IMG/VR virus record: IMGVR_UViG_3300030382_003005 | Coordinates: 1 to 38,946 of that record | Reading direction: 5' to 3' (one strand) | DNA length: 38,946 nt | Origin: a virus | In this document: positions 304-29,277 of the stretch, one piece after another | Layout: each line of letters begins with the position of its first letter | Position numbering within the stretch: position 1 is the first letter of the stretch | Position numbers and translations under genes: made by a program | Notes under the pieces: generated by a model | The model's input: the letters and a program-made list of their open reading frames with translations, nothing else | What the model was told of the DNA's origin: nothing | Databases searched by the model: none

Positions 304-713
304 CTACCAAAAGGGTTAGCATCAGAAGTAATGTCAGGGTGTTCAAGAGAATCAACATAATTTACTTCTTCATTTATATGCATTGAATTAGCAGACTCAT
401 GCACTTTTGGAATAATAAACTTATCTACTAAGACTCTAAACTTCTTATTCCATTTACCCTCCTGATTCTTCCATGATTGTACCTGGATAGACCCTTTAGC
501 AACAAGGATTTCATCTCCTTGTCCTGCTTTTTTCATAAACTCTGCAGATAGTCCATATACAACACAGTCAACAAAAGTTGATTTTTCATCAAACTTCTTC
601 TTCCTGTCAATCTCCCTGCAACCTATAGCAAAATTACAGTATGCTGTTCCATTCTTAGTTTCACCATGTTCAGGTGCTTGTGCTATATTACCAAATAGTT
701 TTACATCATTCAT
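300..713 (-). CDS. ssb: Single-stranded DNA-binding protein
   Basis: 137-residue SSB. The N-terminal ~100 residues have OB-fold signatures: NDVKLFGNIAQAPE at the start, CNFAIGCRE, the FVDCVVYG strand and the KGSIQVQSW strand. An acidic linker follows, then the tail DANPFGS, a variant of the DDIPF tip that recruits partner proteins. It should coat ssDNA during replication and recombination and act with the exonuclease, annealing protein and RusA encoded upstream on the same strand. The start is set by the AAAGGTAAATATG module shared with several early genes. Last gene of the leftward cluster; its stop interlocks with the stop of the convergent endolysin gene. Confidence 0.9.
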   Translation of the reverse strand: MNDVKLFGNIAQAPEHGETKNGTAYCNFAIGCREIDRKKKFDEKSTFVDCVVYGLSAEFMKKAGQGDEILVAKGSIQVQSWKNQEGKWNKKFRVLVDKFIIPKVHESANSMHINEEVNYVDSLEHPDITSDANPFGS

Positions 714-725
714 ATTTACCTTTAG

Positions 726-1082
726 TTAATAGTTATTTTGTAAGTGTTTGACTAATGTTTCTTTAAAGTCAATATCACCATGTTTTTTTAGTACCTCATC
801 TACAATTTCAACTGGTACATATGGATATACTGTTTCAGTAAATTTTGGAGGTTGATCATCAAAAGTAGACTCTACATACTCTGAGATTAACGGTTCTTCT
901 ACTGAAGGAAATCCAATCTCTACAGATTCATAATGATCAGCATTATGTTCCTTTGGAGTAGAGTAATGGGTTTCACCTGCTTGAACAGACATATTAAAAC
1001 CGTCTGTACAGTAAATTAAAGGACACACCTGCATCTCCATCTGGATTGTAGAATATTCCTTTATATATTGATTAATATTCAT
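726..1082 (-). CDS. Hypothetical acidic phage protein
   Basis: 118 residues, no function recognised. It has a YKEYST-type start, a central segment VEIGFPSVEEPLISEYVE and a closing VYPYVPVEIVDEVLKKHG followed by a short helix. I recall the VEIGFPS and TETVYPYVPVEI phrases from uncharacterised proteins in other phage genomes, so it is probably a conserved small early protein. Two cysteines (Cys19 and Cys25) sit near the N-terminus. The start has the same TTAACTAAAGGTAAATATG leader as ssb, and the sequence around the two starts is nearly identical over about 30 bases. Position between ssb and the RusA gene suggests a replication or recombination accessory role, as inference only. Confidence 0.7.
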   Translation of the reverse strand: MNINQYIKEYSTIQMEMQVCPLIYCTDGFNMSVQAGETHYSTPKEHNADHYESVEIGFPSVEEPLISEYVESTFDDQPPKFTETVYPYVPVEIVDEVLKKHGDIDFKETLVKHLQNNY

Positions 1083-1090
1083 ATTTACCT

Positions 1091-1468
1091 TTAGTTAATT
1101 ATTATTTTACCAGCTCCGTCCGTCCATATCTTACTTGCAGTTACTTTCCAGATGGTTGCATCTTCTTTATGCGTTGCATCAAAAAGTCCTTTGAGATAAT
1201 TATCAATATCAGGCCGTTGCTGCATAGGTTTTCCTGCCATAAGAGCTTTCTTCTTCTTTGACCAGGATTTAGGCATTGGGACAAGAAAAATTATGTTTAA
1301 CTCATCCCAATTAAATGGAGGCTCGTCAATCAATAAAGCAGACTTTTCTTTAAGTTCTTGCTTTATACGATCCCGAAAGGCAAAGAAATCTAAGACACAT
1401 TGCCTTTTAGCCCATCTATCACGTTGTGTCATACGTGGTTTGCTACACGGAGGTACGTTTAGAATCAT
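1091..1468 (-). CDS. rusA: RusA-family Holliday junction resolvase
   Basis: 125 residues, normal for RusA. These Mg-dependent homodimeric endonucleases resolve four-way junctions. Visible signatures are the N-terminal strand ending in PPCSKPRMTQRDRW, the central FLVPMPKSWSKKK, and the catalytic motif RPDIDN (D87, D89) followed by a third acidic position in KEDATIW (around D103) and SKIW. The loop between the second and third acids looks somewhat shorter than in the E. coli protein. The start overlaps the stop of the alpha-CTD-like gene by an ATGA, so the two are translationally coupled. Probable role: resolving or trimming branched recombination intermediates before packaging. Confidence 0.88.
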   Translation of the reverse strand: MILNVPPCSKPRMTQRDRWAKRQCVLDFFAFRDRIKQELKEKSALLIDEPPFNWDELNIIFLVPMPKSWSKKKKALMAGKPMQQRPDIDNYLKGLFDATHKEDATIWKVTASKIWTDGAGKIIIN

Positions 1469-2391
1469 AATTTAAACTGCTTTATTATCCTTGCTTTCCT
1501 GAGTTCACGATCCGCTTTCTCTTTTTCCATATTAAGAGTATGACCTCTCTTTTTAAGTTCATCTATAACTTCACGGAGACATTTCCTACCAAAGCTCTTT
1601 ATTTTAATTAAATCAGTAGGTGAATAAGTAAGCAATTGTGCTACTCTCCTGATCCCATGATTCTTAATAGCATTATATGAACGTACAGATATATCAAGTT
1701 CATCCAAATCCTGATTATCCCAATTCTCCCTAGCTTCCTGATTTTGGATGTACCGCTTAGGTTCAACTGGAGTATTTCTAGGCAAGGTTGCACTTGAACC
1801 TAATACTCGCTTTGCAGCTTTCTTTAAAGTTGATTCAGCATTCTCAACAATCTCTGCCTTGAGAGTATCTTTCTCTTTGCTGGTATCAGACTTGATCCAA
1901 TCTTCAATGAGCTTAAACCTGTCCCACATTTCATCTTGGAGATCACGATAATCTTTTCGTAATTTATGAAGTTCTTTATCAGTTGTGTCGATAGCATTAT
2001 TAACCCTATCCTCTAAAGTCTCTAATTGGATTAATATGTACTTCGCACTTTTATCATCGAGTATCTTAAGTTTATCATTAACCTCTGCTCTCCAGTTCTT
2101 ACTTGTGTCGATAGCTTTATTGAGTCTTCCCTCTATTGCAGGTATTTTATCCAAAACCTCTCGGGGCCATTTCCCTTCTGAGCTAAACGCTTCTGTTGCT
2201 TGAGCTATTGCGCTGATTTTCTTTCCAAGCATATCTTCTGATGCTTCTAATGCCTGGTAATCAACAAAGGCTAACTGCTCTTGAAGTGCAGTAATTACTT
2301 GTGCAACTATATTATCGGCATCTCCATGTCCATTATTATTTTGGATACTGAGGAACATTCGACCGATCTCTTTGATTTCTTCGCTATTCAT
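1465..2391 (-). CDS. Coiled-coil protein with RNA polymerase alpha C-terminal-like domain
   Basis: 308 residues. Residues ~1-195 are highly charged and helical, with features of long coiled coils; a short phrase (NKAIDT at 91-96, NNAIDT at 131-136) recurs after 40 residues. A basic linker leads to residues ~229-288, which closely match the two-HhH fold of the bacterial RNA polymerase alpha-CTD: DELDISVRSYNAIK, then LTYSPTDLIKIKSFGRKC, then DELKKRGHTLNM. Equivalents of the E. coli alpha DNA-contact residues R265, N268, G296, K298 and E302 are present (R237, N240, G268, K270, E274). The domain could bind AT-rich UP-element DNA or touch sigma/activators; the coiled coil would multimerise it. Start uses the AAAAAGGTAGATATG leader; the stop is coupled to rusA. 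Domain call strong, function inferred. Confidence 0.8.
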   Translation of the reverse strand: MNSEEIKEIGRMFLSIQNNNGHGDADNIVAQVITALQEQLAFVDYQALEASEDMLGKKISAIAQATEAFSSEGKWPREVLDKIPAIEGRLNKAIDTSKNWRAEVNDKLKILDDKSAKYILIQLETLEDRVNNAIDTTDKELHKLRKDYRDLQDEMWDRFKLIEDWIKSDTSKEKDTLKAEIVENAESTLKKAAKRVLGSSATLPRNTPVEPKRYIQNQEARENWDNQDLDELDISVRSYNAIKNHGIRRVAQLLTYSPTDLIKIKSFGRKCLREVIDELKKRGHTLNMEKEKADRELRKARIIKQFKL

Positions 2392-2401
2392 ATCTACCTT
2401 T

Positions 2402-2656
2402 TTAGATTAGTTTGAGCTGACTTTCATCTACTGGTTTCCAGCGATAGTCAACTAGATTATAAGTTCCTTTCTTGAATTTACTATTCAACTTCTTAGTCTG
2501 TGAGTTGCCATTCTTTAACTCCTCTACAGATAGGAACATTTTCTTTCCGTCATGTTCTACTTCCAATCCTCCTTCCTTTATTGCCTTGTTTACAATATAA
2601 TCTCTAACTGAGACGAGATGACCCATCCAGAGTTTCTTCACTTTTACTGATACCAT
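2402..2656 (-). CDS. Hypothetical basic protein
   Basis: 84 residues, lysine-rich, no family recognised. It begins VSVKVKKLWMGHLVSVRDYIVNKA and looks like a compact alpha/beta domain: a strand, a helix (RDYIVNKAIKEGG), two strands around EVEHDGKKMFLSVEEL, then a basic tail ending YRWKPVDESQLKLI. The charge suggests nucleic-acid binding, but no catalytic motif is visible. An AAAGAGGATAT ribosome site precedes the ATG at 2656. It is the gene directly upstream of the alpha-CTD-like gene, with a 10-base gap, so the two are probably co-expressed. Confidence 0.65.
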   Translation of the reverse strand: MVSVKVKKLWMGHLVSVRDYIVNKAIKEGGLEVEHDGKKMFLSVEELKNGNSQTKKLNSKFKKGTYNLVDYRWKPVDESQLKLI

Positions 2657-2705
2657 ATATCCTCTTTATGTAAAACATTGTCATACAGAGCGATCTGGAG
2701 ACGCA

Positions 2706-3194
2706 CTAATCCAAATTTTGGGCGTGATCATAGAAATAACAGTAATCTCGACCATGTGCATCTCTAGTTAGCCTAAATCTCATACCATCTTGTACACCTT
2801 CATGTGGTGCTTTAACCAAGTGGTTTGTTTTAGACTCTCCTTGCATTATTGCATTTACTAATTTAGGAACCATTTCCTTTGAAATCTTAGTATAATTTTG
2901 TTTACTCTGTTTCCCATATTGATGTTCCAGGTTAGCAGACTGTCTTTTAAAGAAATTAACCTCTTTTTCTTTGTAAATTTGCATAAATTCTGCTATAGTA
3001 GGCATCTTAAGGGTAACACCTTTGCCATCAGTAATCTGTTCATATGCTTCTCTCAACAGATCAGTATTTGGGATACCTAATTTCTGTTGCCATATTACCA
3101 GTTTACTCTCCTGCATTGGAATATTGAATGCTTCGCAAAGTTGAGCGACTAACATTCTTACTTGTGGATGTATGTTCGGCTCTTGTATTTCCAT
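2706..3194 (-). CDS. Helicase-loader / replisome-organiser-like protein (tentative)
   Basis: 162 residues from the ATG at 3194. An in-frame TTG at 3200 would add two residues, but AAAGGA lies at better spacing for the ATG. The middle resembles phage G39P/DnaI-type loader N-termini: a helical segment (MLVAQLCEAFNIPM, LVIWQQKLG) followed by LKMPTIAEFMQIYKEK, where MPTIAEF is a phrase typical of such proteins. These proteins deliver the host replicative helicase to the phage origin. The start lies inside the previous gene, overlapping it by about 90 bases in another frame, which suggests tight translational coupling between two replication proteins. Family call is weak; hypothetical is the fallback. 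Confidence 0.55.
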   Translation of the reverse strand: MEIQEPNIHPQVRMLVAQLCEAFNIPMQESKLVIWQQKLGIPNTDLLREAYEQITDGKGVTLKMPTIAEFMQIYKEKEVNFFKRQSANLEHQYGKQSKQNYTKISKEMVPKLVNAIMQGESKTNHLVKAPHEGVQDGMRFRLTRDAHGRDYCYFYDHAQNLD

Positions 3195-3624
3195 TTTCAA
3201 ATTCCTTTCTAGCTATAGCCATTTGATGACTTGTATCAAGATACTGTCGATTATTTTTGGTTGGTTGGGCATTATTTATGATGCCGTTGTATTGATTGCC
3301 TTTATTGCCAATACCTTGCCAACCGTTGAGCATAACAGCATTTAGTAGTTCATTAGGATCAACCCCATCACCTTTAGCTCGTGCTAGTGCTTTGATCATT
3401 AATTCTTCTGCATGTGGAGTCATTTTCTTCTTGATCGTGACTCTGTGCTGTTTGAAGTGCTCCCAAACTATAGGATCTATATAGTCTGGTAATCTCTGAT
3501 CCGATGCTAACCGAGTAAAACACTCTTTAACAATTGCAATAGCATCTCCTTCAATAGTTCCTTCCCATTGAAGCATCTTGAACTCTTTAATCATCTGGTT
3601 CATACATTCTTTAACTGTTTTCAT
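3103..3624 (-). CDS. Phage replication-initiation-like protein
   Basis: 173 residues. Residues ~45-105 carry the pattern WEHFKQHRVTIKKKMTP, a long helix, GVDPNELLNAVMLNGWQGI, which I recognise from the C-terminal region of phage replication proteins and DnaT-like helicase partners (the recurrent W..f...R ... lt ... G.dp..il..s...gW.g pattern). The rest is a low-complexity Asn/Thr/Ser-rich tail encoded partly over the next gene. Likely acts with the downstream loader-like protein to recruit the host replisome. No winged-helix N-terminus of the kind found in lambda O-type initiators is obvious. The start overlaps the upstream stop by ATGA. Confidence 0.6.
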   Translation of the reverse strand: MKTVKECMNQMIKEFKMLQWEGTIEGDAIAIVKECFTRLASDQRLPDYIDPIVWEHFKQHRVTIKKKMTPHAEELMIKALARAKGDGVDPNELLNAVMLNGWQGIGNKGNQYNGIINNAQPTKNNRQYLDTSHQMAIARKEFENGNTRAEHTSTSKNVSRSTLRSIQYSNAGE

Positions 3625-3830
3625 GCTGCCTCCTCCATTGCTTCTTTTAAAACATCCTTGAATAGCCGACTGACAGCATTTTTATGTTCCAGAGTCTCTT
3701 TTAACTTAGGCTTATAGGTATTTCGTCTTCTCTTTAAGTCTTGCTCAAAGTAACCCATAATAACCTCATTGCATCGTACTATTCCTTCTACATATGCAGA
3801 TTTTCTAATTGGAGTTACGAAATCACTCAT
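3621..3830 (-). CDS. Small basic helical protein
   Basis: 69 residues, no family recognised. It is helical throughout: VTPIRKSAYVEGIVRCNEVI, a strongly basic stretch LKRRRNTYKPKLKET, then HKNAVSRLFKDVLKEAMEEAA. The charge suggests a DNA- or RNA-binding accessory. It overlaps both neighbours by ATGA (3621-3624 and 3827-3830), between the annealing protein and the replication-initiation-like protein, so translation is probably coupled along the three genes. Confidence 0.65.
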   Translation of the reverse strand: MSDFVTPIRKSAYVEGIVRCNEVIMGYFEQDLKRRRNTYKPKLKETLEHKNAVSRLFKDVLKEAMEEAA

Positions 3831-4561
3831 GCACCCTCCTTTGGAAACTTACCATTGAGATATTTCATGAATATAACAAGCGATTCATAATCCTTGAACT
3901 CCATTGTACTCTTCCAGTTAGCAATAGAAGTCTCACAAAACTCTTTCAGTAAGTCTTTATTACCAAGATTTGCTTCTGCATGTACTGATATTGCACTTTC
4001 AGCAGCATCATCATTGAAATCTGCAAGTACTAAGGCTAGTAATTCTTCTCTATCTGCATCAGGGCAACCTTCAACGAAGATTTTGGCTATTGATGTCCTG
4101 TATTTGACATACAGATTTTCACCAATACTTGCTTGTGGTGCTTCCATCATATTTGTCAGTTCCTTTTTCTTAGTCTGACTTTTCTTAGCTTTCTTTACTT
4201 CCTGCTGCTGGATTGCACCATCAACCTCATTTGCTGAAGCATAGGCATCTTCAATACCAATACCAAAAGCTGCTAATGCTCTTCCAATTGCACTAGTTTC
4301 GCAATTTTCTACATAACTAGTAGCATTAACAAAGGAATTAGGATCATCTTGTCGTTCATGTGCAATTCCACTACCAACAACACGACCAGTTTGGTCTGTG
4401 ATCCATGCTTGTATGATTATTTCACTCTTTTCTTTGTGCCACTCTATTACTTTGGTTTTTATACCAAACATTTCATCTTTGTCACCATAGTTTTCACGAA
4501 GATGCTTCACACGTTCATTTACTTGAACATATGGCTTACCTTTAATCATCGTTTTTTCCAT
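3827..4561 (-). CDS. Single-strand annealing recombinase (ERF/Rad52-like superfamily)
   Basis: 244 residues. The core (about 8-115) starts KPYVQVNERVKHLRENYG and includes a strand-rich segment (IIIQAWITDQTGRVVGSGIA) and the conserved helix SYVENCETSAIGRALAAFG followed by ASANEV. That pattern is typical of phage ssDNA-annealing proteins. A lysine/glutamine-rich linker (~118-135) leads to a helical C-terminal domain that could bind SSB or another partner. It would pair the ssDNA ends made by the YqaJ exonuclease encoded just upstream; such exonuclease-annealing pairs build packaging concatemers. Leader CTGAAAGGTTAAGATG belongs to the recurring early module. The gap in front (4562-4813) holds a palindromic operator candidate. 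Confidence 0.78.
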   Translation of the reverse strand: MEKTMIKGKPYVQVNERVKHLRENYGDKDEMFGIKTKVIEWHKEKSEIIIQAWITDQTGRVVGSGIAHERQDDPNSFVNATSYVENCETSAIGRALAAFGIGIEDAYASANEVDGAIQQQEVKKAKKSQTKKKELTNMMEAPQASIGENLYVKYRTSIAKIFVEGCPDADREELLALVLADFNDDAAESAISVHAEANLGNKDLLKEFCETSIANWKSTMEFKDYESLVIFMKYLNGKFPKEGA

Positions 4562-4813
4562 CTTAACCTTTCAGTTTAATGTTAATTACCAATTAAAACC
4601 TTCACCTAGTGAAGATTATTTGTAAGATTACTCAGAGACAGCGTAAGAATTACCTAACCCTGGATTGGGTGACTCGACAACCGAGCCAAACAGTAAAGTT
4701 ATGTATTCCGTATTGCTTTACCAGTTATGTCATTGAAGGAATTAAACAAGAGAATGAAAACAAAAACTCTTGCCGAGGATTCCCTCTCCTGGCTTAATCT
4801 CTGAGCAACCGAA
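4562..4813. other. Intergenic stretch between exonuclease and annealing-protein genes
   Basis: About 250 bases without a convincing gene. Contains operator candidate 1 (4600-4614), a small hairpin CTCG-ACAAC-CGAG at about 4672-4684, and an inverted repeat GTAAAG...CTTTAC at about 4693-4721. The plus-strand open frame at 4609-4797 starts with GTG inside the operator and has no ribosome site. I looked for a tRNA cloverleaf on both strands and found none. Best read as a promoter/leader for the leftward genes starting with the annealing protein. Confidence 0.5.
4600..4614. promoter_or_regulatory. Palindromic operator candidate 1
   Basis: CTTCACCTAGTGAAG: two 6-base arms (CTTCAC/GTGAAG) around a 3-base centre. 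It lies about 40 bases upstream of the annealing-protein start codon. The same TTCAC-N3-GTGAA pattern recurs at 6124-6136 in front of the small HTH gene, which makes it a likely repressor or activator site. A loose sigma70-like match (TTACGC, 16 bases, TACAAA on the minus strand, about 4654-4627) would put this palindrome near the transcription start, but that promoter match is weak. Confidence 0.55.
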
Positions 4814-5863
4814 TTACTTCTTGAGCTCTCTAAATTGTACAGATTGATTTGTTTCACAAATTTCGTCTACTAATCCACTATATTTATCAGTAAACTTAGG
4901 TTTGTCAAACTTTTGGCACTCTTCCCATTCTTTAGGGAACTTGGTTTTGACATCTTTCTCCTCATAACTTCTTGCTTCTTTCCTAGTACATTTGAGCTTT
5001 GTCCCATCACTTAGCCTTGCACCTTGTGATGTTCCAATACTATTCTGCATTATTATTCTATCTTCAATATCTGCTTCTTTCATTAATTTAGCCTGTATCT
5101 TCCTTTCTCTTGTTCTAATCCAGGCTTCTTCTCCTGCAGTATCCATTGCGATGAAATTATCGTCATGATCCCAATTCTTAATAGTGAAATCATGTGATGT
5201 ACTTGGTACTGGCCCTCCTTTTACATTAGGGTTTCTTCTGGCTTCTTGTACGAAGCTCCAGAATCGGCATACTGCCTGTGTATATGAATCAAGTAGTTCT
5301 TTATCTCTTTTAACTACATAATGTCGCAGAGGCTCGTGTGGCAACTGTACGAACACAAATACTGCATTGACCTCTGGATGTACTACCAAATAATGAATAC
5401 ATTGCATTAAATTCCATACAGGAATCTCGTCTGTACCCTCTTCTCCATAATTCTTTGCAGAATATGTCATAGGGCATTTGATCTCAGCAATTACCTTCTT
5501 ATACCTCTTGCCAAATGCTTCTATCGTATTTCCTACCAGAGTTGCATCAATGTGAGCATACATAAATGGATACTTCTCACTCCAATGTGTACTCTTGTCT
5601 CTACGGAGTTGATATTTTGTTGTCTTATTTATTTTTTCTAGTACTGGACCTTCTAGCCATGATCCCCATTCTACTGAGGGCTTATCACTTATGTCTTTTT
5701 CTTTCTGTCTACCCAATTTGATATTGAATAGCTCATATTGGCTTGTTGCCCAACTACTCATTTGAGGAGTCATAATATTAGCAGCAGCATATGCTTCCGA
5801 TCCGCCAATACCCTGCAGTCTTGCAACTTCATCTCCTGGTTCAAAGTCTTTCTTGACTGTCAT
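4814..5863 (-). CDS. YqaJ-type viral recombinase / exonuclease (PD-(D/E)xK)
   Basis: 349 residues. Matches the YqaJ/lambda-exonuclease family, which resects duplex ends to leave ssDNA for annealing. Visible motifs: GIGGSEAYAAAN (19-29), EWGSWLEGPVLE with E65 and E71, then YAHIDATLVG with the catalytic Asp (D106) and VIAEIKCP with E127 and K129, the D...ExK core. The WNLMQCIHYL segment with Q154 is the usual downstream helix. The C-terminal ~130 residues are charged and partly helical. Leader AAAAAGGGTAATATG belongs to the early intercistronic module. Downstream (leftward) is the annealing protein, the expected partner; upstream is the small HTH gene, 10 bases away. Confidence 0.88.
   Translation of the reverse strand: MTVKKDFEPGDEVARLQGIGGSEAYAAANIMTPQMSSWATSQYELFNIKLGRQKEKDISDKPSVEWGSWLEGPVLEKINKTTKYQLRRDKSTHWSEKYPFMYAHIDATLVGNTIEAFGKRYKKVIAEIKCPMTYSAKNYGEEGTDEIPVWNLMQCIHYLVVHPEVNAVFVFVQLPHEPLRHYVVKRDKELLDSYTQAVCRFWSFVQEARRNPNVKGGPVPSTSHDFTIKNWDHDDNFIAMDTAGEEAWIRTRERKIQAKLMKEADIEDRIIMQNSIGTSQGARLSDGTKLKCTRKEARSYEEKDVKTKFPKEWEECQKFDKPKFTDKYSGLVDEICETNQSVQFRELKK

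Positions 5864-11836: not shown

Positions 11837-11837
<1 letters not shown>
11421..11837 (+). CDS. terS: Terminase small subunit
   Basis: 138 residues from the ATG at 11421. The frame is open from 11277, but that position is the -35 box of the promoter and cannot be the start; GTG 11379 is the other option. An N-terminal HTH-like part (ILCSLQEGGYKLNKTTGYNL) is followed by QERLRGSGPKALSVVEQLM and DSETVRLGAAKDMLDRGGF, the phrase typical of small terminases that tile along DNA and hand it to the large subunit. Basic/charged C-terminal helix. First gene of the late operon; its TAA overlaps the next ATG (TAATG). The large subunit gene lies five genes downstream. Confidence 0.78.
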
Positions 11838-12655
<818 letters not shown>

Positions 12656-12669
12656 TGTAACGAGGCACA

Positions 12670-13332
12670 ATGGGAAAAACCTTGATAAATCCTAAGAACC
12701 AGAAAACGTATGGTGGTGACGACCAAATTCCAGACGAAAACTACTATAATGGAGTATTCTTTTCAAATCCAGAACTAGCTCAGATGTTCAGAGATAACAA
12801 TTGGAATACCACATTGAAAGTGGGAGATCCTGAACCTGAACCTGAAACTGAAACTCCGAGAGGAGGGGCAAAAAAAGATGGGTCTAAGAAGAAGTGGCAT
12901 TGGATTGATGATGATCGTATTCCTAGCCAAGCAGAGATTGATTTTTATGCAAGTTTCGATGAAGAAGGGAATCCTACAGAAGAAACCACGATAACACAAG
13001 ATCATCTCGATGAAATTGGCATGGGTGGAGGAGATGATGGACAAGGATTTACAGTAGATGATGTTGGTCCTGGCGTAGAAGTAAATGCTGATGAAATACC
13101 AAAAGAAATGCCAGGATTTACTTCTGAGCATAACCCCTACATAGATCCCATGACAGGAGAAAAGAAGTTTCTAACTAGAGAGCAATGGAGTGCATCTATA
13201 GGAGAAGACGAAAAATATGGTAAAGGTAGAGGGTTCACCGCACCTGAAGGTGGAAAAGTAAAATCAGGTACTTTAAGGCGAAATATTAGGAAGATGGCTC
13301 CCTCATTGATCTCTGGTAGTAGAACATCATGA
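12670..13332 (+). CDS. Acidic paralogue B with C-terminal LRR tag
   Basis: 220 residues. Begins MGKTLINPKNQKTYGGDDQI, matching the N-terminal ~52 residues of paralogue A with few changes, and ends SGTLRRNIRKMAPSLI plus a short tail. The middle is unrelated to A: Glu/Pro/Thr-rich, with KKWHWIDDDRIPSQAEIDFY, then ENPYID-like and MTGEKKFLTREQW segments. It looks like a duplicated gene whose centre has been replaced or has diverged. Function unknown; role with terminase or virion inferred from position. Stop overlaps the next ATG (ATGA). Confidence 0.7.
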   Translation: MGKTLINPKNQKTYGGDDQIPDENYYNGVFFSNPELAQMFRDNNWNTTLKVGDPEPEPETETPRGGAKKDGSKKKWHWIDDDRIPSQAEIDFYASFDEEGNPTEETTITQDHLDEIGMGGGDDGQGFTVDDVGPGVEVNADEIPKEMPGFTSEHNPYIDPMTGEKKFLTREQWSASIGEDEKYGKGRGFTAPEGGKVKSGTLRRNIRKMAPSLISGSRTS

Positions 13333-13637
13333 CCGAAGATCAGGTAAAAAGTTACGATTCTGATGGAATGATCTATGTGAGGCCGACTTCAGGCAAATAT
13401 GCTAATGATAGTACAAGCTCCTTCATAACTTGCCTTGCAGAGTTTGAGACTATTCAAGAAGCCGATGATTTTAAAGAAAAGTGGGCAAAGGCATCGAATT
13501 CTAAAGAAGTACGCAAGTTTCTTCTAGATAAACATGAATTAGATCATCCAGAATGGTTTAGGCTCTCTGGTAGATTGAGAGATGAATATATTGATTACTA
13601 TCATGACACGGTAACAAATGAGAACAATATTCAATAA
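13329..13637 (+). CDS. Hypothetical small late protein
   Basis: 102 residues, acidic, alpha/beta by eye: SFITCLAEFETIQEADDFKE, a helix KEVRKFLLDKHEL, then PEWFRLSGRLRDEYIDYYHD. No family recognised. Overlaps the previous gene by ATGA, and its end is overlapped by the small 54-residue frame. Confidence 0.6.
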   Translation: MTEDQVKSYDSDGMIYVRPTSGKYANDSTSSFITCLAEFETIQEADDFKEKWAKASNSKEVRKFLLDKHELDHPEWFRLSGRLRDEYIDYYHDTVTNENNIQ

Positions 13638-13782
13638 AGCAGATAAGAACAGAACTGAGTACGAAGAAAATATGCCGAAGCAAGGGTTTAAATCTGGTGA
13701 AAAGATAAATGAAGAGCTCCTGGACGAACACAATGCCAGGACAAAAGGGAAAACATTACTCACTACAGGGCTAACTCGCTGA
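13618..13782 (+). CDS. Small hypothetical late protein (54 aa)
   Basis: A 54-residue frame read directly: MRTIFNKADKNRTEYEENMP, then a charged middle (KSGEKINEELLDEHNARTK) and TTGLTR end. It fills the gap between two late genes exactly: it overlaps the previous gene by 20 bases and stops (13780-13782) one base before the ATG of the 828-residue protein. The ribosome site is weak, so start and reality are uncertain; an internal ATG at 13672 is an alternative. Confidence 0.5.
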   Translation: MRTIFNKADKNRTEYEENMPKQGFKSGEKINEELLDEHNARTKGKTLLTTGLTR

Positions 13783-13783
13783 T

Positions 13784-16270
13784 ATGGCAAAGAAATATAT
13801 CGAGGTCAAGGGGCCATTTCAAATAAGGAATAAGGAAGCTGCAAGTAGAATTAGCAAAGAAATTTTACGGCTTGCGAAAAAACATCCTTCTGCGAAATTT
13901 ATTCTTCGGGAGAGTCATCGTAAACAGGGATCGGGAAGTGTATATAGTGCTGCATTCCAGACTCTTACTAAAAATGACATGGGGGATAGGATACATGTCG
14001 AGAAAGCAAAGCATGGAAGAGGATATGCACATTTGGGTCCACCATCTAAGGTTCGTGAAGGAAAGATAGCTAAACTTGGTGCATTTAAAGTTGCAGAGTT
14101 CACTTTTTCTGGCAAAGTTCCTTCTGCAGAATACAAGGCATGGAGAGAAGTTGACATAAGTATCAGTAAGGAAAAGACTTGGGACCCTTTAAGAACTAAA
14201 GGTCAGCATTTAGTCTCATTTGGCTACAAGCCTGAGAAAGTAAAGAAGTATGTTGGTGGTACAGCAAGTGCATCTAAAAAAGTTGATGCATACATTGACA
14301 GAGTTTCTGAGTATGGGAGGAAGAAAGGTGCAAAGCAAACCTCTGTAGATATCGCAATTGAGTATATACAGGACAAGAGCGACGAGTTTGCAGAAACCCA
14401 ACGATACCAGAATCCAAGTGCAGAGCCAATACATATGCTCTCTAAAGCAAGACAGACTAGATTAGAGAGACTACGCAAGAATTATGGTACTATACCAGTA
14501 CAAACTGGCAAAGTAAATATTGAAGGTGCTGGTAAAAAGAAGATTGTTCCCCAAGTTCCCATACAGACTGATCCGCACAAAATATATCGTAGTAATATTG
14601 CAACATCAACTAAAGAGAAGTTTAAAGGCGAGGCTAAGAGGGGATTGCCTGGAACTGGTTTTAGGGAAAGTGGAACTTCTACATCTTTTGAACCAGTTGG
14701 TATAGCTAGCGAGATTAATCCTGGGAGAGAGTTTGATGAAGATGCAGTAATGTCACATAAAGATGATGCACCACGTTATCCAACTCATTCCAGTGAGCGA
14801 GTTACCTTCCCTGCAGATCAAAAGCCTTTAAAAAATGTGAAACCAATTAAGTTTCCTGCAATTACAACAGCAGGGAAATTTGATCCCAAGAATCGCAAAT
14901 ACACTCAATTTGGTGAGTCTAAAACACCAAAGCCTGAAACACTTTCCGTAGCACAAAAGAAAGAATACAGAAAGCATGGGCTTAAAGTGCCAACGAATGT
15001 TGTACCCATAATACAACCCTTCAGTCAAATATCATCTGGACTGATACAATGGGATAAATATAAAAGTGAATTAGACTCATCACACAGTATTACTCCTTCA
15101 GACGAATTTAAGAAATCATCCTTTGAATCACCTGATATTGCTTCTGCAGATAAAGGAGGAGGAGGTAATATGCAGACACATACAGACGAGTTCATTGATA
15201 GAAAAGCACAGGGAATGAGGGATGACCTGTCAAATATAGAGAAAAAACCCTGGCTGATTGATAGTGTTAAGGTTGGAGATACTAAAAAAGCAACTAAAAC
15301 CACCACTATAACTGATGTTCTCTATGGTGATGGTACTGAGCATAATCCTGCAACTGGAACACAAGATAAAGCACCATCCTCAACTTCTCCAAGAAGTGTT
15401 AGTGATCCAATTGAGCCGTACAAGGAAAAACTTCCTGATCTACCACCAGGAGTAAGAAAAACCAAAAAACCAGAGAGTCGTGAACGGAAACATCAACGTA
15501 GATTAGAGAACCTGAAAACCGAGACAACTAATATCTCAATACATAAAAATAAAAAAGGAGAAGAATACTTCCGCCTCAATAAGAATCCAGGATATGATAA
15601 AGAAGTACGGACTAAACATACCCTTGAAACTATGTCCATAGAAGAACAGGGACGGAAAGAAGCAGCCAAACGAAAAGAGGGTAGTACAAGAGCGCAGCAA
15701 ATTAAGAAGAATTATGTTGAATTCCGCAATAAAGCTGTTAAAGACTTTAATGTGAAAATAGCAGCAGGAGAGACGACAAGTAAAGTAGACACTTCTGATG
15801 TAACAAGTGCGAATATCACAAAAGGAACACATAGCCCTCAGAGAACATTTTCGTTGGCGAAGAAAGCTCCACCAAAAGGGGTAACTGCAGGAAGTATGAT
15901 CAGGGGTGCATTTAAACTTGGAGGGATATTAAGTGTTGGGATAGCTCCGCTTCTAGCAGTTAAAGAAGTTAAAGCTGCAGGGGCAAAACTAACTCCAGCA
16001 AATATTGGTCAAGAAACTGCTAGGTTCATGCTTGGATCGGATCGAGTATGGAGTGGAGTTGGAGCAAAGAACAAAGGATACTTCCAGAAAGTCGGCCCAA
16101 CAACAAAAGGTGTCGAAGGTGGAAGACGACCTATTAAACCGATTCCAGGTGCAGGAGGCCCAAATACTCCTTATGCAAAACTCAAGAAATCTGTAAGTGG
16201 TGCAATGATAGAATGGAGTAAGGCTTCTAGTAAAGCATCGGAGGCATTAAAATATAGGAGAGTTAAATGA
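13784..16270 (+). CDS. Giant basic low-complexity protein (candidate internal/ejected virion protein)
   Basis: 828 residues, rich in Lys, Ser, Thr and Pro, mostly without hydrophobic core. The N-terminal ~170 residues look folded (IEVKGPFQIRNKEAASRISK, FILRESHRKQGSG, AEFTFSGKVPSAEYKAWREV). A long disordered centre follows, and residues ~700-730 form a hydrophobic segment (MIRGAFKLGGILSVGIAPLL). The C-terminus is basic (SKASEALKYRRVK). No family recognised. Size, charge and one membrane-like helix resemble proteins carried in the head and ejected with DNA, or a large adaptor for the HNH protein encoded immediately downstream (ATGA overlap). Function unproven. Confidence 0.65.
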   Translation: MAKKYIEVKGPFQIRNKEAASRISKEILRLAKKHPSAKFILRESHRKQGSGSVYSAAFQTLTKNDMGDRIHVEKAKHGRGYAHLGPPSKVREGKIAKLGAFKVAEFTFSGKVPSAEYKAWREVDISISKEKTWDPLRTKGQHLVSFGYKPEKVKKYVGGTASASKKVDAYIDRVSEYGRKKGAKQTSVDIAIEYIQDKSDEFAETQRYQNPSAEPIHMLSKARQTRLERLRKNYGTIPVQTGKVNIEGAGKKKIVPQVPIQTDPHKIYRSNIATSTKEKFKGEAKRGLPGTGFRESGTSTSFEPVGIASEINPGREFDEDAVMSHKDDAPRYPTHSSERVTFPADQKPLKNVKPIKFPAITTAGKFDPKNRKYTQFGESKTPKPETLSVAQKKEYRKHGLKVPTNVVPIIQPFSQISSGLIQWDKYKSELDSSHSITPSDEFKKSSFESPDIASADKGGGGNMQTHTDEFIDRKAQGMRDDLSNIEKKPWLIDSVKVGDTKKATKTTTITDVLYGDGTEHNPATGTQDKAPSSTSPRSVSDPIEPYKEKLPDLPPGVRKTKKPESRERKHQRRLENLKTETTNISIHKNKKGEEYFRLNKNPGYDKEVRTKHTLETMSIEEQGRKEAAKRKEGSTRAQQIKKNYVEFRNKAVKDFNVKIAAGETTSKVDTSDVTSANITKGTHSPQRTFSLAKKAPPKGVTAGSMIRGAFKLGGILSVGIAPLLAVKEVKAAGAKLTPANIGQETARFMLGSDRVWSGVGAKNKGYFQKVGPTTKGVEGGRRPIKPIPGAGGPNTPYAKLKKSVSGAMIEWSKASSKASEALKYRRVK

Positions 16271-17118
16271 AAAAGAAAGAGTGGGATAATATCCATATGC
16301 CCAAGATGCTTAGTAAAAGTGGAAAGAAAAAAGGGGCAACTGTTGCAAAAGCACCGAAAGTTAAGAAGGGATCTGGTACTCAAGTTACAGTCGCTTCAAT
16401 GATGAAAGCATTTATACCGCCACCACCAGCAAAGAAACGTGCATTAACAAGGAATGATTATTTAAGTGCGAAAACTCCACAAGGTAAAAGCAAATGGAGC
16501 GTTGCTAGAGATACTATCATTGGCAACGAGGGAACCACAAAAATGCCTGTTACAAAATGGGTTCCTATTCCTAAAGGAGCCGAAGTTGTAGAAGGTAAAC
16601 TAGAGATGCTGAAGGGCAGTAGCAGGGGGGCTGGAGAACGGAAAGTTACTACAATGGAAGATACAGGTATAACACGATGGAAAGATGCATACACAGGAGA
16701 GACAATAACTGATGATAATGAGATACAAATAGATCATACAGTTTCAATAGATAGAGCAAAGCGTAGTGGGGCGTTCAAGAAATTGGGCGATGCACAAAGA
16801 TTTGGCACGTATTTAGAAAACCTTGTAATAACAAAAGAGAAAACGAATAAAGACAAAGGCGCAAAAGACTTAGGAGATCCGAAGTTTGGGGGATATGAAC
16901 CTGCTCATGAGCCAAAGAAATATGCACAAAGATATGGTAATGTTATGAAGGACATGGGATTAGTAATGAAATATAGCGAAGGTCGTGGATATAAAAAGCA
17001 TACAGGAGAAGACCCAAAAGGCCCTGTTCAACATATCCTTGATATGCAAAGAGGAGAACCAATCGCTGATACACAAACACGGCATGATACGTGGATGATG
17101 AGAGCTAGGAAAAAATGA
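16267..17118 (+). CDS. HNH nuclease (DUF1524/GmrSD-like His-Me finger) with basic N-terminal extension
   Basis: 283 residues. The N-terminal ~60 residues are strongly basic with a PPPP stretch. Residues ~135-200 fit the ββα-metal fold: WKDAYTGETI, then EIQIDHTVSI (D156-H157), SGAFKK, and LENLVITKEKTNKDKGAK with the structural Asn (N185) and N194/K197. The DH, NL and NKxKG spacing matches DUF1524-like nucleases more than classical CxxC HNH proteins. Tail is charged (QTRHDTWMMRARKK). HNH nucleases next to the large terminase stimulate packaging in other phages; a virion-carried or exclusion role is also possible. Overlaps both neighbours by ATGA. Confidence 0.72.
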   Translation: MKKKEWDNIHMPKMLSKSGKKKGATVAKAPKVKKGSGTQVTVASMMKAFIPPPPAKKRALTRNDYLSAKTPQGKSKWSVARDTIIGNEGTTKMPVTKWVPIPKGAEVVEGKLEMLKGSSRGAGERKVTTMEDTGITRWKDAYTGETITDDNEIQIDHTVSIDRAKRSGAFKKLGDAQRFGTYLENLVITKEKTNKDKGAKDLGDPKFGGYEPAHEPKKYAQRYGNVMKDMGLVMKYSEGRGYKKHTGEDPKGPVQHILDMQRGEPIADTQTRHDTWMMRARKK

Positions 17119-18569
17119 GCAGTAATGCAGTAAAAGCACTAAAGATTGCAGAAGCAATTATTGAGTCAGAAGAAACTAATAAGCTCAATTGCTATAATCC
17201 ATATGATTATCAGAAAAGATTCCATAATGCAAAAGACATGAAGGGTCGTCTTGCAAGGCAAAGACTCTTGATGGCAGCAAATAAAACTGGAAAGACTTAC
17301 TGTGGGGCAGTAGAGATGGCATTTCACTTAACTGGCCTTTACCCTAAGTGGTGGACAGGAGCAAAGTTTCACCGCCCTGTTACTGCATGGGCTGCTGGAA
17401 ATACAACAGGCAATACAAGAGATATAGTACAAGCAGAGTTATTAGGAGAGCCAGGTGATCCAGAAGATTTCGGAAAAGGAGCAATACCAAAAGACTTAAT
17501 AGTGGGACAACCACAAAGACTTCCTGGTATTCCAAATGCATACCAAAATGTAATAATAAAACATTCTTCTGGTAAAAACTCTAAACTTATGTTTAAATCT
17601 TACGAACAGGGTAAACAGCAATGGATGGGGAAAGCTGTTGATGTGGTATGGTTAGATGAGGAACCACCTCAAGATATATACTCTCAGGCACTTCGTGCAT
17701 CCTTGAAAACAGGAGGGTTAGTGTATATGACCTTTACACCTGAAACTGGAATGACCCCAGTTATTACCCAGTTTATGACAAAGCTAGGTAATTCACAGGC
17801 ATTGTTCTCAGCGACATGGGATGACGCGCCTCATTTAGATGAGGGTATCAAGGAAGAGATTTTGAGGGCATTGCCTCCGCATGAAAGAGAAATGCGGTCA
17901 AAAGGGATACCAATATTTGGTTCAGGTATGGTCTTTCCTAATATAGAGGATCAAATACAATGTGATCCATTTGCAATACCTGAGTATTGGCCTAGAGTTT
18001 GTGGATTAGATTTTGGATGGGATCACCCTACTGCTGCAGTTTGGCTTGCATGGGATCGTGATACGGATACAGTATATGTTTATGACTGCTATAGACAATC
18101 TGCACAAACACCTGTTGTTCATTCTGCTGCAATACGAGAAAGAGGGAAATGGATACCTGTTGTATGGCCTCATGATGGATCGCAACATGATAAAGGATCA
18201 GGACACTCACTTGCAGATATATATCGGAGACAGGGTTTAAATATGATGCACACTCACTTTACTAATCCAAAAGGTGACATTGCAATAGAACCTGGTATCA
18301 TGGATATGCTGCAAAGAATGGAAACTGGTCGTTTTAAAGTTTTTAGTTTCTTAAGAGAATGGTATGAAGAAGTTAGAATGTACCATCGTAAAGATGGCAA
18401 AATAGTAGCGAACAATGATGACTTGATGAGTGCAACACGATATGCTTGTCAGTCTTTAAAGTTTGCAACTACAGGGAAACCTACACATCGTAAAAGGAGA
18501 GCTGTTGGGGCTGGACCTGGTGAATGGAATTACTTTCCTGTTGATAAACCTACAAGAATATTTGCATAA
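17115..18569 (+). CDS. terL: Terminase large subunit
   Basis: 484 residues. ATPase: an adenine/Walker A region MAANKTGKT (53-61, the deviant A..GKT loop) and Walker B VDVVWLDEE (175-183, D181/E182), followed by the coupling motif TFTPETG. Nuclease (RNase H-like): VCGLDFGWDHPTAAVWL with the first catalytic Asp at 298, and later acidic residues including YDCYRQS and the C-terminal NNDDLMSATRYA. It cuts concatemers and drives DNA into the prohead at the portal. Normal family length. Start is ATGA-coupled to the HNH gene; the small subunit lies far upstream, with five ORFs and the nuclease between. Confidence 0.95.
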   Translation: MSSNAVKALKIAEAIIESEETNKLNCYNPYDYQKRFHNAKDMKGRLARQRLLMAANKTGKTYCGAVEMAFHLTGLYPKWWTGAKFHRPVTAWAAGNTTGNTRDIVQAELLGEPGDPEDFGKGAIPKDLIVGQPQRLPGIPNAYQNVIIKHSSGKNSKLMFKSYEQGKQQWMGKAVDVVWLDEEPPQDIYSQALRASLKTGGLVYMTFTPETGMTPVITQFMTKLGNSQALFSATWDDAPHLDEGIKEEILRALPPHEREMRSKGIPIFGSGMVFPNIEDQIQCDPFAIPEYWPRVCGLDFGWDHPTAAVWLAWDRDTDTVYVYDCYRQSAQTPVVHSAAIRERGKWIPVVWPHDGSQHDKGSGHSLADIYRRQGLNMMHTHFTNPKGDIAIEPGIMDMLQRMETGRFKVFSFLREWYEEVRMYHRKDGKIVANNDDLMSATRYACQSLKFATTGKPTHRKRRAVGAGPGEWNYFPVDKPTRIFA

Positions 18570-18578
18570 GGAGATAAT

Positions 18579-19004
18579 ATGAGTCTTTTTAGTGATTGGT
18601 CAACCAAAGCCAAAACATACTATGATGAAAAGGTAAAGCCAGACGGAGGAACACCAAAGTCATTTTTCGATAGTGGGAAAAGATTAGTTACTAAAGCATA
18701 TAATGAAAGATGGACTCCAGGTAAAACACCAGCGTATGCGGAGTCACATGCGACACAACAAATAAGAGGAATACTGAGTGATCAATTGAATCCATTGAGA
18801 AGTGCAGCAGCATCTACAGTAGAAGGAGCAAAACCAGGCCAATCTGCAGAAGATTTACTCTATGGTTCCCGAAGAGGAATACAGGGTAGAAGGAAATCTG
18901 GTAAAAGCAATAGTGAGGACTTGAGAAGGACACCTTATGCAATGAAGAATGATACTTTACTAACACAAGGGCAAAAAGCCAAAAAGTTAAAAGGGAAAGT
19001 ATAG
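18579..19004 (+). CDS. Small tagged protein C (LLYGSRRGIQ...LRR)
   Basis: 141 residues, basic, no family recognised. A helical N-terminus (WSTKAKTYYDEKVKP) and a segment (THATQ-like) QIRGILSDQLNPLRSAAAST are followed by LLYGSRRGIQ (93-102) and EDLRR (113-117). The first phrase recurs identically in the next gene; the LRR part recurs in two acidic proteins upstream. AAGGAGATAAT gives a clear start. Located between large terminase and portal, so probably a head or packaging component carrying a localisation tag. Confidence 0.65.
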   Translation: MSLFSDWSTKAKTYYDEKVKPDGGTPKSFFDSGKRLVTKAYNERWTPGKTPAYAESHATQQIRGILSDQLNPLRSAAASTVEGAKPGQSAEDLLYGSRRGIQGRRKSGKSNSEDLRRTPYAMKNDTLLTQGQKAKKLKGKV

Positions 19005-19012
19005 GAGATAAT

Positions 19013-19687
19013 ATGAAAGTATATACAGAAGTAAACTACATCTGGAAAGATGATAAATTAGTTCAAACTGATTCCAAGTCATTTGACTATGAGGGAGAAG
19101 TTTCCTTATGCCACAATAGAACAAGGCGAGTAGGGAGTAAGTGGACAGGTTACAAAACTATTAATATCCCACATACCCATAAATCAATAAATGATATTAA
19201 ACCTAAAGGTGGGACTACAGCAGAGGCCACAAATGCAGCTAACGAAGCAGTTCATTCTGGAGCTACTGCAATTACTACAGGGATCAAGAAAATAAAAGAA
19301 ACTGTAAGTAAAGGGCCTACTGGTGGAACAGCGAAAGATGTTGCAGATGCTTTATACGGAGGTTCTACTAAAGACCTAGTTGAAAAGGCACAAGAAACTT
19401 ATGTTAATTTAGAAACCTCCTTTAATAAAAATAAGGATGATCTTGCACAAGCATTATTTGCTCCTACTAAGAACAAACTTGAGGAGACTGCAACATCAAT
19501 TATAAACGAGAATATAAATAAGAATAGGCCAACTAGTAATGTGAATGGGCAAGAAGATGAACTGCTTTATGGTTCACGAAGAGGAATACAAATGCAAGAT
19601 GAAGGACAAAGAGCTTCAAGTGGAGGATTACGAAGAGATATACATGTATTAAGAACATTGTCAGGTAAAGCAAAACCAAAAGGATAG
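19013..19687 (+). CDS. Small tagged protein D (LLYGSRRGIQ...LRR)
   Basis: 224 residues. An N-terminal beta-rich domain (TEVNYIWKDDKLVQTDSKSF, YEGEVSLCHN, TGYKTINIPHTH) is followed by Ala/Thr-rich helices (ATNAANEAVHSGATAITTGI, KLEETATSII) and ends with LLYGSRRGIQ (184-193) and SSGGLRRDI (202-210). LYGG at ~114-117 may be a degenerate extra copy. Shares the tag with protein C. No enzyme motif. AGGAGATAAT start, 8 bases after gene C. Likely a virion or head-assembly protein. Confidence 0.65.
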   Translation: MKVYTEVNYIWKDDKLVQTDSKSFDYEGEVSLCHNRTRRVGSKWTGYKTINIPHTHKSINDIKPKGGTTAEATNAANEAVHSGATAITTGIKKIKETVSKGPTGGTAKDVADALYGGSTKDLVEKAQETYVNLETSFNKNKDDLAQALFAPTKNKLEETATSIINENINKNRPTSNVNGQEDELLYGSRRGIQMQDEGQRASSGGLRRDIHVLRTLSGKAKPKG

Positions 19688-28184: not shown

Positions 28185-28633
28185 TGGATTTATGCAAACC
28201 AGTTAGTTTTAAACCAACACGATATACACAAGCACAGTTCAGGTATGGGATTTCAAAGTTAGAAGACCTGATTAATAATGATGATGATAACTCAGATTTG
28301 GTTGTAAGAGAAAATCCTCTCAAAGAACGATTTTTGGATCACCAATATATAAGAGAAGTGTTTAATCCAGCAGGTCAGTTACTAGTTACAAAGATACATA
28401 AGGTCGAACATCCTTTCTTCCTATTGCAAGGAGAAATGTCTATTATTACAGAGAAAGGGGAAGAGCATATATCTGCACCTTATTATGGAGTGACTGCTGT
28501 AGGTACAAAGCGGATCATATACACACACACAGATTGCGTATTTGTAACAGTTCATGCTACTGAGTTAAAAGATACAGATAAAATTGAGAATGAAGTGATT
28601 GCAAAAGAATACACTGAATTAGAGGAACTATGA
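28184..28633 (+). CDS. Cupin-domain protein
   Basis: 149 residues from the ATG at 28184; a GTG at 28181 is possible but AGGAGG is better spaced for the ATG. Residues ~75-125 fit a cupin barrel: HKVEHPFFLLQGEMSIITEKGEE followed by PYYGVTAVGTKRIIYTH and VFVTVHATELKD, with His residues that could bind metal. Such cupin proteins recur among podovirus tail genes; their role there is not established to me. ATGA overlap with the next gene. Confidence 0.72.
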   Translation: MDLCKPVSFKPTRYTQAQFRYGISKLEDLINNDDDNSDLVVRENPLKERFLDHQYIREVFNPAGQLLVTKIHKVEHPFFLLQGEMSIITEKGEEHISAPYYGVTAVGTKRIIYTHTDCVFVTVHATELKDTDKIENEVIAKEYTELEEL

Positions 28634-29277
28634 CTTATATTGCAGCAGGAGCAGCCATATTACAGTTGGGTGCATCATATATGGGTGCGCAAGCAGCTAA
28701 AGCAGCATCTCAATTAGAAGGAGATGAATATGATTTGTCTGCTATACAAACCCTGCTTACTGCAAGATACAATTTAGGCAATATTATCGAATCAGGAATG
28801 ATTAAACACGATAGTATAATGGAACAAGGAGCAGATAAAGAAGCATTACTTAAAAGAGCAGGGAAGTTGCGATTAGGTAAAACTGTTGCTACTATTGGCG
28901 CAAGTGGTGTTAGAATGGATAGTGGAACAGCAAACCAGCAAATTATAAAAAGTGGCTTAGATAATGCTTCGCAAATACTTGCCAACCAGGAAGAATTAAA
29001 TGCTGCAATATCAGGACTTGAGACTAATGTAGGTAAACAACTTGAAGAAACAAGAGTTAAAGCACTTAATGATTACAATAAACTGAAACGAATGGCTAAA
29101 CTTGCACGAGAAGGTGGTAATACTGGACATTTTGCTACAATGATGACAGGTATAGCTGGAGCAGCAGGAACCTATACTAATTTAGGTGGTAATTTCTCTG
29201 AGTTTCAGACTCAGGAAACAGGCGGAGGCATAGAAACAAGCACACTACCTAAAAATTACAAACCAGGTGGCAAATAA
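28630..29277 (+). CDS. Internal virion protein (gp14-like)
   Basis: 215 residues, mostly Ala-rich helix: AAGAAILQLGASYMGAQAAK, an LRLGKTVATIGASGVRMDSG turn with the usual SG.R.DSGTA pattern, a coiled middle (NAAISGLETNVGKQLEETR) and a Gly-rich end. Small hydrophobic helical proteins at this position (after the tail tube) form part of the ejection channel (T7 gp14-like). Overlaps next start as TAATG. Confidence 0.68.
   Translation: MTYIAAGAAILQLGASYMGAQAAKAASQLEGDEYDLSAIQTLLTARYNLGNIIESGMIKHDSIMEQGADKEALLKRAGKLRLGKTVATIGASGVRMDSGTANQQIIKSGLDNASQILANQEELNAAISGLETNVGKQLEETRVKALNDYNKLKRMAKLAREGGNTGHFATMMTGIAGAAGTYTNLGGNFSEFQTQETGGGIETSTLPKNYKPGGK

Follow-up and report, generated by a model that had tools for sequence, protein, structure and literature searches.

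The giant and HNH genes overlap in series with the large terminase gene

We analyzed a 38,946-nt stretch of DNA (hereafter the window), the virus record IMGVR_UViG_3300030382_003005 from IMG/VR, which encodes a T7-like portal protein (Head-tail_con, 6e-99) and, upstream of its large terminase gene, two genes that are the subject of this work. The first (13784..16270, plus strand) encodes a giant cysteine-free protein of 828 amino acids (aa; pI 9.9, net charge +66) with a folded N-terminal region, a mostly disordered middle and a C-terminal module carrying a hydrophobic helix. The second (16267..17118, plus strand) encodes a cysteine-free HNH protein of 283 aa (pI 9.9, net charge +24). The large terminase, TerL, follows at 17115..18569 on the same strand and is a Terminase_6N/6C protein by Pfam (E 6.3e-27 and 1.5e-20). 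The three reading frames were as originally predicted, and both predicted ATGA overlaps were confirmed, at bases 16267–16270 (giant/HNH) and 17115–17118 (HNH/TerL). The data presented below suggest that both proteins act as weapons which can be swapped and which reach the cell together with the phage DNA.

Conservation of the gene order

A single-sequence search of IMG/VR with the HNH protein revealed no relative, and TerL was used as the query instead. This search gave 31 loci, of which 28 encode a TerL 82–97% identical to that of the window; together with the window they form the close set of 29 loci. The best 80 loci of a TerL profile search, 77 of them new, provided a sample, not an exhaustive set, of sister-clade and more distant loci.

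In the close set, the HNH gene, recognized with an HNH profile, adjoins TerL in all 26 testable loci (in L017, L023 and L032 the upstream sequence is too short for the test). It ends −4 to +9 nt from the TerL start, as placed by mechanical gene calling, in 25 out of 25 loci counted, L012 being omitted because its 5′ end is cut. An open reading frame (ORF) of 284–1,245 aa, in several cases cut by the contig end, adjoins the HNH gene (−9 to +40 nt) in 23 of the 26 loci, and in the remaining three (L006, L012 and L019) the contig ends before a giant gene could show. Over its C-terminal 170 residues, every one of these 23 giants matches at least one other giant.

The sister clade (L036–L048; TerL 73–77% identical) is organized in a different way. 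Among the loci listed, 11 out of 13 have an upstream ORF; an ORF of 196 to 987 aa adjoins TerL in all 11, and the HNH gene is detectable in none of them. It should be mentioned that two sister-clade loci contain, 5′ of the giant gene, genes for proteins of 259 and 264 aa (L037:126–902; L039:1075–1866) whose starts (SRRSFLKG..., TRRAFIG...) look by eye like twin-arginine signals, which is odd for a phage packaging cluster. In locus L055 a relative of the HNH gene (502–1071) is located 3.4 kb 5′ of TerL, before the giant; its product has two cysteines, unlike the TerL-adjacent HNH proteins.

Homologues of the HNH protein or the giant were not found among 50,697 named phage records, and a TerL search of GTDB genome contigs, made to find the host, gave no relative. 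The nearest named TerL, that of Pelagibacter phage EXVC032P Baldr, is only 55% identical and thus too distant to name a host.

The constant position of the HNH gene fits a packaging accessory that, like gp74 of HK97, helps TerL to cut or finish the genome ends, the giant being an unrelated structural or assembly protein. Besides the spacing of −4 to +9 nt, searches with the HNH protein alone, whose reach was limited to close relatives, retrieved only TerL-adjacent loci already known via TerL (10/10 and 2/2 contigs), and gp74 is described in part of PMC9410871 as stimulating cutting by the HK97 TerL. Nevertheless, we regard this explanation as rather unlikely. HNH alleles are swapped while TerL is unchanged (see below), and the gene is not detected in any of the 11 testable sister-clade loci despite their related TerL. 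Although both are HNH-class genes linked to packaging, the HNH protein has no sequence match to gp74, lies beside a Terminase_6-type TerL, is hypervariable, and contains no cysteine, while gp74 has four and one CxxC. The original prediction had preferred a virion-carried nuclease to a packaging aid; this preference gained indirect backing from the lack of cysteine, the allelic swaps beside a fixed TerL and the 0/11 count in the sister clade, and an HNH protein acting in packaging only is the less likely case.

The HNH protein is a predicted His-Me finger nuclease resembling endonuclease I

Six residues, D156, H157, N194, K197, Y223 and G247, are invariant in 22 out of 22 aligned HNH proteins (D156/H157 are encoded at 16732–16737, N194 at 16846–16848 and K197 at 16855–16857). 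The structural model has a mean predicted local distance difference test score (pLDDT) of 76.5 and a folded core at about residues 60–250 (16444..17016). Compared with solved folds, it is closest to endonuclease I (Z 11.2; root-mean-square deviation 2.4–2.5 over 125–126 of 207 aa), and the next structural group is the Cas9 HNH domain (Z 5.5). Foldseek alone also ranked endonuclease I first, with an E-value of only 0.046, and endonuclease I was on top when the HNH profile was compared with PDB sequences (E 0.011).

The claim that the protein has a DUF1524-like or GmrSD-like fold was borne out only in part. Among the viral predicted structures of BFVD the top match is a phage protein named GmrSD_C (4.3e-7), endonuclease I being third (0.012); the 50 solved folds listed include no row named GmrSD. 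However, the Pfam matches of the window protein, HNH_4 and GmrSD_C, are both below cut-off (GmrSD_C 14.7 bits against 23). Across the 22 members GmrSD_C matches five at E up to 0.1 (best 5.5e-4), and Endonuclease_1 is not among the Pfam matches listed at that threshold. On its predicted fold, we consider the protein to be a His-Me finger nuclease that belongs to no named family and whose nearest solved structure is endonuclease I. It shares with endonuclease I (EndA/Vvn) the His-Me finger core, and the profile match pairs its D-H with E-H and its N with N; it differs in having D in place of E before the histidine, in lacking cysteine (22/22), in its basic N-terminal extension, in being phage-encoded and in the missing Endonuclease_1 match.

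A weak match to the PHROG of endonuclease VII (E 0.0028), together with the site beside the packaging genes, could point to an enzyme that resolves or debranches replicating DNA before packaging, as endonuclease VII of T4 does. This role is quite improbable: no PHROG match reaches 0.001 in the 22 relatives, the presence of a phage-encoded RusA (PF05866, 2.8e-13) weakens the case for a second resolvase, and neither hypervariability nor cysteine avoidance is accounted for by a housekeeping function.

Domain architecture of the giant

The AlphaFold2 model of the giant has a mean pLDDT of 54.4, with 433 of 828 residues below 50. The description of this protein as disordered is therefore accurate for much of the chain, but most of residues 1–235 are predicted to be folded. 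The predicted hydrophobic helix was found at residues 708–726 (15905..15961; Kyte–Doolittle value 1.73), within the C-terminal module. The segment of highest hydrophobicity is located 79–135 residues from the C-terminus in all 23 giants of the close set (values 1.15–2.06), and the module itself is common to the relatives, including that of the sister-clade locus L040 (42% identity over 108 aa, E 1e-15).

The description as basic fits the window copy (+66) and does not extend to its relatives, since net charge varies from −1 to +76 across the 23 giants, several of which are cut by contig ends. This variation argues against a DNA-condensing or scaffold-like internal assembly protein whose variability reflects relaxed constraint on a disordered chain. 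The high charge and extensive disorder of the window copy, and its lack of cysteine, shared with scaffolds, would suit such a protein; folded enzyme-type domains in some relatives, and the exchange of discrete blocks with high-identity flanks instead of gradual drift, would not, and we give this explanation little credence.

Sequence searches with the window giant gave no Pfam match at E 1 and nothing beyond noise among PHROGs (0.37). Structure realignment of the predicted N-terminal alpha/beta domain (residues 1–118; 13784..14137) placed LOG, YpsA, Moco-carrier, ShosA, ThsA and DprA proteins in rows 1–13 by Z (5.9–7.2), all of which we take to be SLOG-type folds; KDO8P synthase is not among the 50 rows listed after realignment. 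The fold is thus putatively SLOG-like, and since neither hhalign nor the profile search gave sequence support, the label is a structural one. Homology of this N-terminus with that of the sister-clade giants was considered and dropped (hhalign probability 0.2%). A search with a sister-clade N-terminus gave no convincing match, and an ASCH-like appearance of the L040 N-terminus, noticed by eye, is not put forward, as Pfam showed no domain there at E 0.1.

In total 36 giants, 23 from the close set and 13 from L036–L055, were surveyed for domains, and five of them contain conflict domains (cpYpsA-SLOG or NADAR). cpYpsA is present in the giants of L008, L026 and L050 (1.2e-14 to 1.7e-20) and in L015; NADAR was found in the L049 giant, just above the cut-off (1e-8). 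The L050 giant also has a sub-threshold NADAR match (3.9e-4) in the same chain as its cpYpsA. PHROG 335, named as a phosphatase, matches two out of 22 aligned giants (best 1.2e-7); neither of the two is among ten giants that were scanned again. A cpYpsA-like stretch (E 6.9e-11) was also noticed on the minus strand at the contig end of L014 (2–250), over the start of the giant; it is possibly an inverted contig-end artefact.

Hypervariability and swaps of single genes and domains

In most close relatives the HNH protein and the giant are only 25–50% identical to those of the window, while TerL is 82–97% identical. Pairwise identities were computed over the 29 close loci. In the 120 pairs with TerL 88–93% identical, the median identity is 33.6% for the HNH protein (120 pairs) and 36.5% for the giant (95 pairs), compared with 88.8% for the portal (43 pairs) and 82.5% for TerS (12 pairs). 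The ratio of nonsynonymous to synonymous divergence (dN/dS) is below one in the divergent pairs printed, for the HNH gene, for example, 0.32/1.13 in L009/L010 and, as the weakest case, 0.10/0.13 in L025/L030; both genes are thus kept by selection.

Nucleotide identity scans of six locus pairs revealed that the two genes are exchanged one at a time. Loci L009 and L010 are 96–100% identical through the giant gene, 46–80% identical over the HNH gene and again 96–100% identical over TerL. Conversely, in L028 and L029 the HNH gene and TerL are 95–100% identical and the giants are largely different, apart from a patch of about 120 nt. Exchange also takes place within the giant: the giants of L026, L027 and L031 are nearly identical outside one slot (alignment columns about 722–890), which in L026 is occupied by the cpYpsA-SLOG domain and in L027 and L031 by different stretches, and in L027 the C-terminal module has been exchanged as well. 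Since each gene is swapped singly, the two do not form a fixed pair and do not go with a particular TerL allele, and the suggestion that the giant is a dedicated partner of the HNH protein gained no support.

Sharp, conversion-like edges at an HNH-class gene could also arise if it encoded a homing or otherwise selfish endonuclease and the swaps were its gene conversion tracts. However, the site is occupied in all 26 testable loci of the clade, the predicted fold is endonuclease-I-like, and both the giant and the genes after TerL swap in the same pattern without this nuclease. This makes selfish homing a very improbable explanation.

Avoidance of cysteine

The close-clade giants (22 distinct) contain two cysteines in 16,410 aa, the 13 giants of L036–L055 none in 9,666 aa, and the HNH proteins (23 distinct) none in 8,826 aa; the TerLs contain 9.6 per 1000 aa. 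The other 33 listed proteins of the window have 63 cysteines in 9,785 aa. By group, the window rates per 1000 aa are 12.9 for early genes, 5.9 for TerL, portal, capsid and tail, 1.4 for ejection-type genes and 0.5 for seven island genes.

For comparison, a control set of 12 proteins of T7, N4 and P22 regarded as internal or ejected has five cysteines in 8,350 aa; the set was chosen by hand, with N4 gp51, gp52 and gp54 as the weakest choices, and for T7 gp6.7 the record note says that it is injected. In contrast, 49 other chosen proteins of these phages have 8.8–12.6 cysteines per 1000 aa, and 18 non-ejected virion or scaffold proteins have 6.06. Cysteine-free ORFs of at least 200 aa amount to three out of 16 in T7 (scaffold, gp15, gp16), five out of 26 in P22 (scaffold, needle, gp7, gp20, gp16), four out of 22 in the analyzed part of N4 (vRNAP, gp51, major head protein, gp57), two out of 18 in Baldr and eight out of 21 in the window (including A1 and A2, described below, the giant and the HNH protein). 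Thus, absence of cysteine marks proteins that are located inside the capsid or ejected, together with some proteins of scaffold, head and tail. In composition, though not compared by sequence, the giant and the HNH protein resemble T7 gp15 and gp16, P22 gp7, gp16 and gp20 and N4 vRNAP (no cysteine in each), but the window has separate ejection-type genes at 28630–37209, in the usual T7-like place. A literature search on cysteine avoidance gave nothing relevant, although such a rule may already be published.

A short peptide shared by proteins of the packaging cluster

Several genes around the giant, HNH and TerL genes, all on the plus strand, encode proteins with a common short peptide, [ST]L[IL][NTS]. 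Upstream lie the accessory genes A1 (11837..12655; 272 aa) and A2 (12670..13332; 220 aa), whose cysteine-free products are paralogues carrying the motif near both ends (KTLIN and APSLIN in A1). These tandem paralogues have a similar N-terminal stretch (MGKTLINPKNQ...) and the end SGxLRRxIRKxAPSLI, and differ in their acidic middles. A 54-aa ORF directly 5′ of the giant (13618..13782) has the motif at its C-terminal end, KGKTLLTTGLTR. Downstream, between TerL and the portal, B1 (18579..19004; 141 aa, cysteine-free, motif DTLLTQG) and B2 (19013..19687; 224 aa, one cysteine) form a second hypervariable island (18579–19687); they have LLYGSRRGIQ in common. Separately, a DxLYG motif was noticed.

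In the packaging clusters of the window and four long relatives the peptide occurs 6, 4, 6, 6 and 5 times; the expectation is 0.3–0.6, and none of 400 shuffles of each reaches the observed number. Outside the cluster it is at or below expectation, except in G001 (3 against 2.7 expected). Counted by class, with V also allowed at position 3, it occurs 15 times in HNH proteins (2.1 expected), 32 in giants (4.3), 20 in other upstream proteins (1.5), 53 in other downstream proteins (4.2) and never in TerL, portal or TerS; nine of 26 HNH proteins and 11 of 23 giants have it. When all 4-mers were counted, SLIN came out on top, being found in 34 out of 128 accessory proteins (0.5 expected). The pattern was picked post hoc, after the window's clade had been viewed, and relatedness inflates these counts. 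With the pattern fixed, the sister clade, part of whose sequences had been read beforehand, has 20 occurrences (3.4 expected; 0/500 shuffles reach 20). Outside the sister clade, enrichment is only twofold in the group with TerL 53–57% identical (21 against 10.5; 1/500 shuffles), absent in the 58–68% group (10 against 7.0; 85/500 shuffles reach 10), and the Baldr packaging cluster has no copy. A literature search for the peptide strings gave no phage paper by title.

These observations lead us to a broader idea, which we put forward tentatively and hold to be rather doubtful. These phages may represent a marine podophage family with a general system for loading virion cargo, in which cysteine-free, allele-swapped effectors from islands on both sides of TerL would be recruited into the procapsid via [ST]L[IL][NTS], often near the C-terminus. 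Any gene gaining the tag would then become injectable, and phage-injected proteins in general would be recognizable by their lack of cysteine. Encapsulins have cargo-loading peptides, and if the peptide is a loading tag it would be the phage counterpart of these, usable to put chosen proteins into capsids.

Other genes of the window

Genes for SSB and RusA and one with a YqaJ recombinase domain lie on the minus strand at 300–5863. In the subset of window genes that was examined, none was recognized as encoding a DNA polymerase.

Comparison with known systems

Polyvalent proteins (Iyer et al., 2017; PMC5512222), as described in the main text of that paper, are large multidomain proteins that are encoded near late genes, are predicted to be packaged and injected, and combine diverse conflict domains. 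The giant is similar in size (828 aa, up to 1,245 aa in relatives) and in position, with only the HNH gene between it and TerL. It differs from what is described there in being an allelic cassette at a fixed TerL-side place, in the swapping of single domains in a slot, in near-total cysteine avoidance and in that sequence searches reveal no domain in the window copy. By structure the window copy shows one putative SLOG-like fold. The words SLOG, NADAR and Pelagibacter are absent from the main text of PMC5512222.

Phage YpsA-like SLOG and NADAR proteins, predicted to counter NAD-derived defence signals, are reported in PMC9503650, which in the relevant passages mentions contexts among virion genes and sporadic SLOG-HNH fusions. 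The proteins treated in those passages are typically standalone, whereas here SLOG and NADAR are parts of giants adjoining TerL or the HNH gene. No publication on this TerL-side cassette was among those listed by our literature searches. What looks new is the cassette itself, allelic and located next to TerL, as well as the slot for domains in the giant, the cysteine signature and its control, and the peptide common to proteins of the cluster.

Giant and HNH as probable virion-carried effectors

From the established gene order and linkage, hypervariability, swaps of single genes and single domains, conserved nuclease residues and cysteine avoidance, we infer, with a probability of about 60%, that the giant and the HNH protein are effectors of an arms race that travel in the virion and are akin to polyvalent proteins, the inference covering their location, ejection, activities and targets. 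It is the TerL-linked position, the exchange of cassettes, the conflict domains in some relatives and the avoidance of cysteine that together favour virion-carried effectors.

The two genes would then belong to a hypervariable cargo cassette within the packaging operon. Their translation would be in series with that of TerL; the products would be taken up by the procapsid and, as chains devoid of cysteine, pass into the next cell along with the DNA. The giant would be a modular effector of the polyvalent type: its C-terminal module with the hydrophobic helix may serve docking or membrane passage, while its SLOG-like N-terminus and the exchangeable slot, occupied by cpYpsA or NADAR in some relatives, may act on NAD or nucleotide defence signals. 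The HNH protein would be a separately exchangeable His-Me finger nuclease cutting DNA of the host or of a rival early in infection.

Several points weigh against these proposals. The SLOG-like assignment of the window giant is weakly suggested by a match of middling Z, no domain being found by sequence. Among the top Foldseek rows, none of which reaches E 0.001, KDO8P synthase appears alongside YpsA and ThsA and occupies row one (E 0.023, tied with YpsA), and the N-terminal profile matched only KDO8P synthase chains in the PDB (best E 0.032). The contigs are metagenomic, so an assembly chimera could explain any single junction, and hypervariability fits any arms race. As for cysteine, some controls contain it (three in N4 gp54, one each in T7 gp6.7 and gp14), and disorder too may lower its content. 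Because scaffolds and some head and tail proteins are cysteine-free, the signature may mean "inside or near the procapsid". The 121-aa T7 gp3.8, annotated as HNH, has no cysteine and HK97 gp74 has four, so single proteins prove little. Neither the giant nor the HNH protein of the window contains the peptide, and 8/8 HNH proteins and 6/7 giants of its clade lack it; it thus speaks for the cluster-wide idea but gives no direct support for these two proteins. Finally, a free nuclease made late would need restraint, and no gene for an inhibitor lies between HNH and TerL, the only place where one was looked for.

If virion carriage of the giant and the HNH protein is correct, near-total lack of cysteine would offer a simple and testable sequence signature of phage-injected proteins, whose fast evolution makes them difficult to detect by homology. 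Near-identical phages that differ in a single cassette would be natural experiments, which could link each cassette to the host defence or the rival that it beats.

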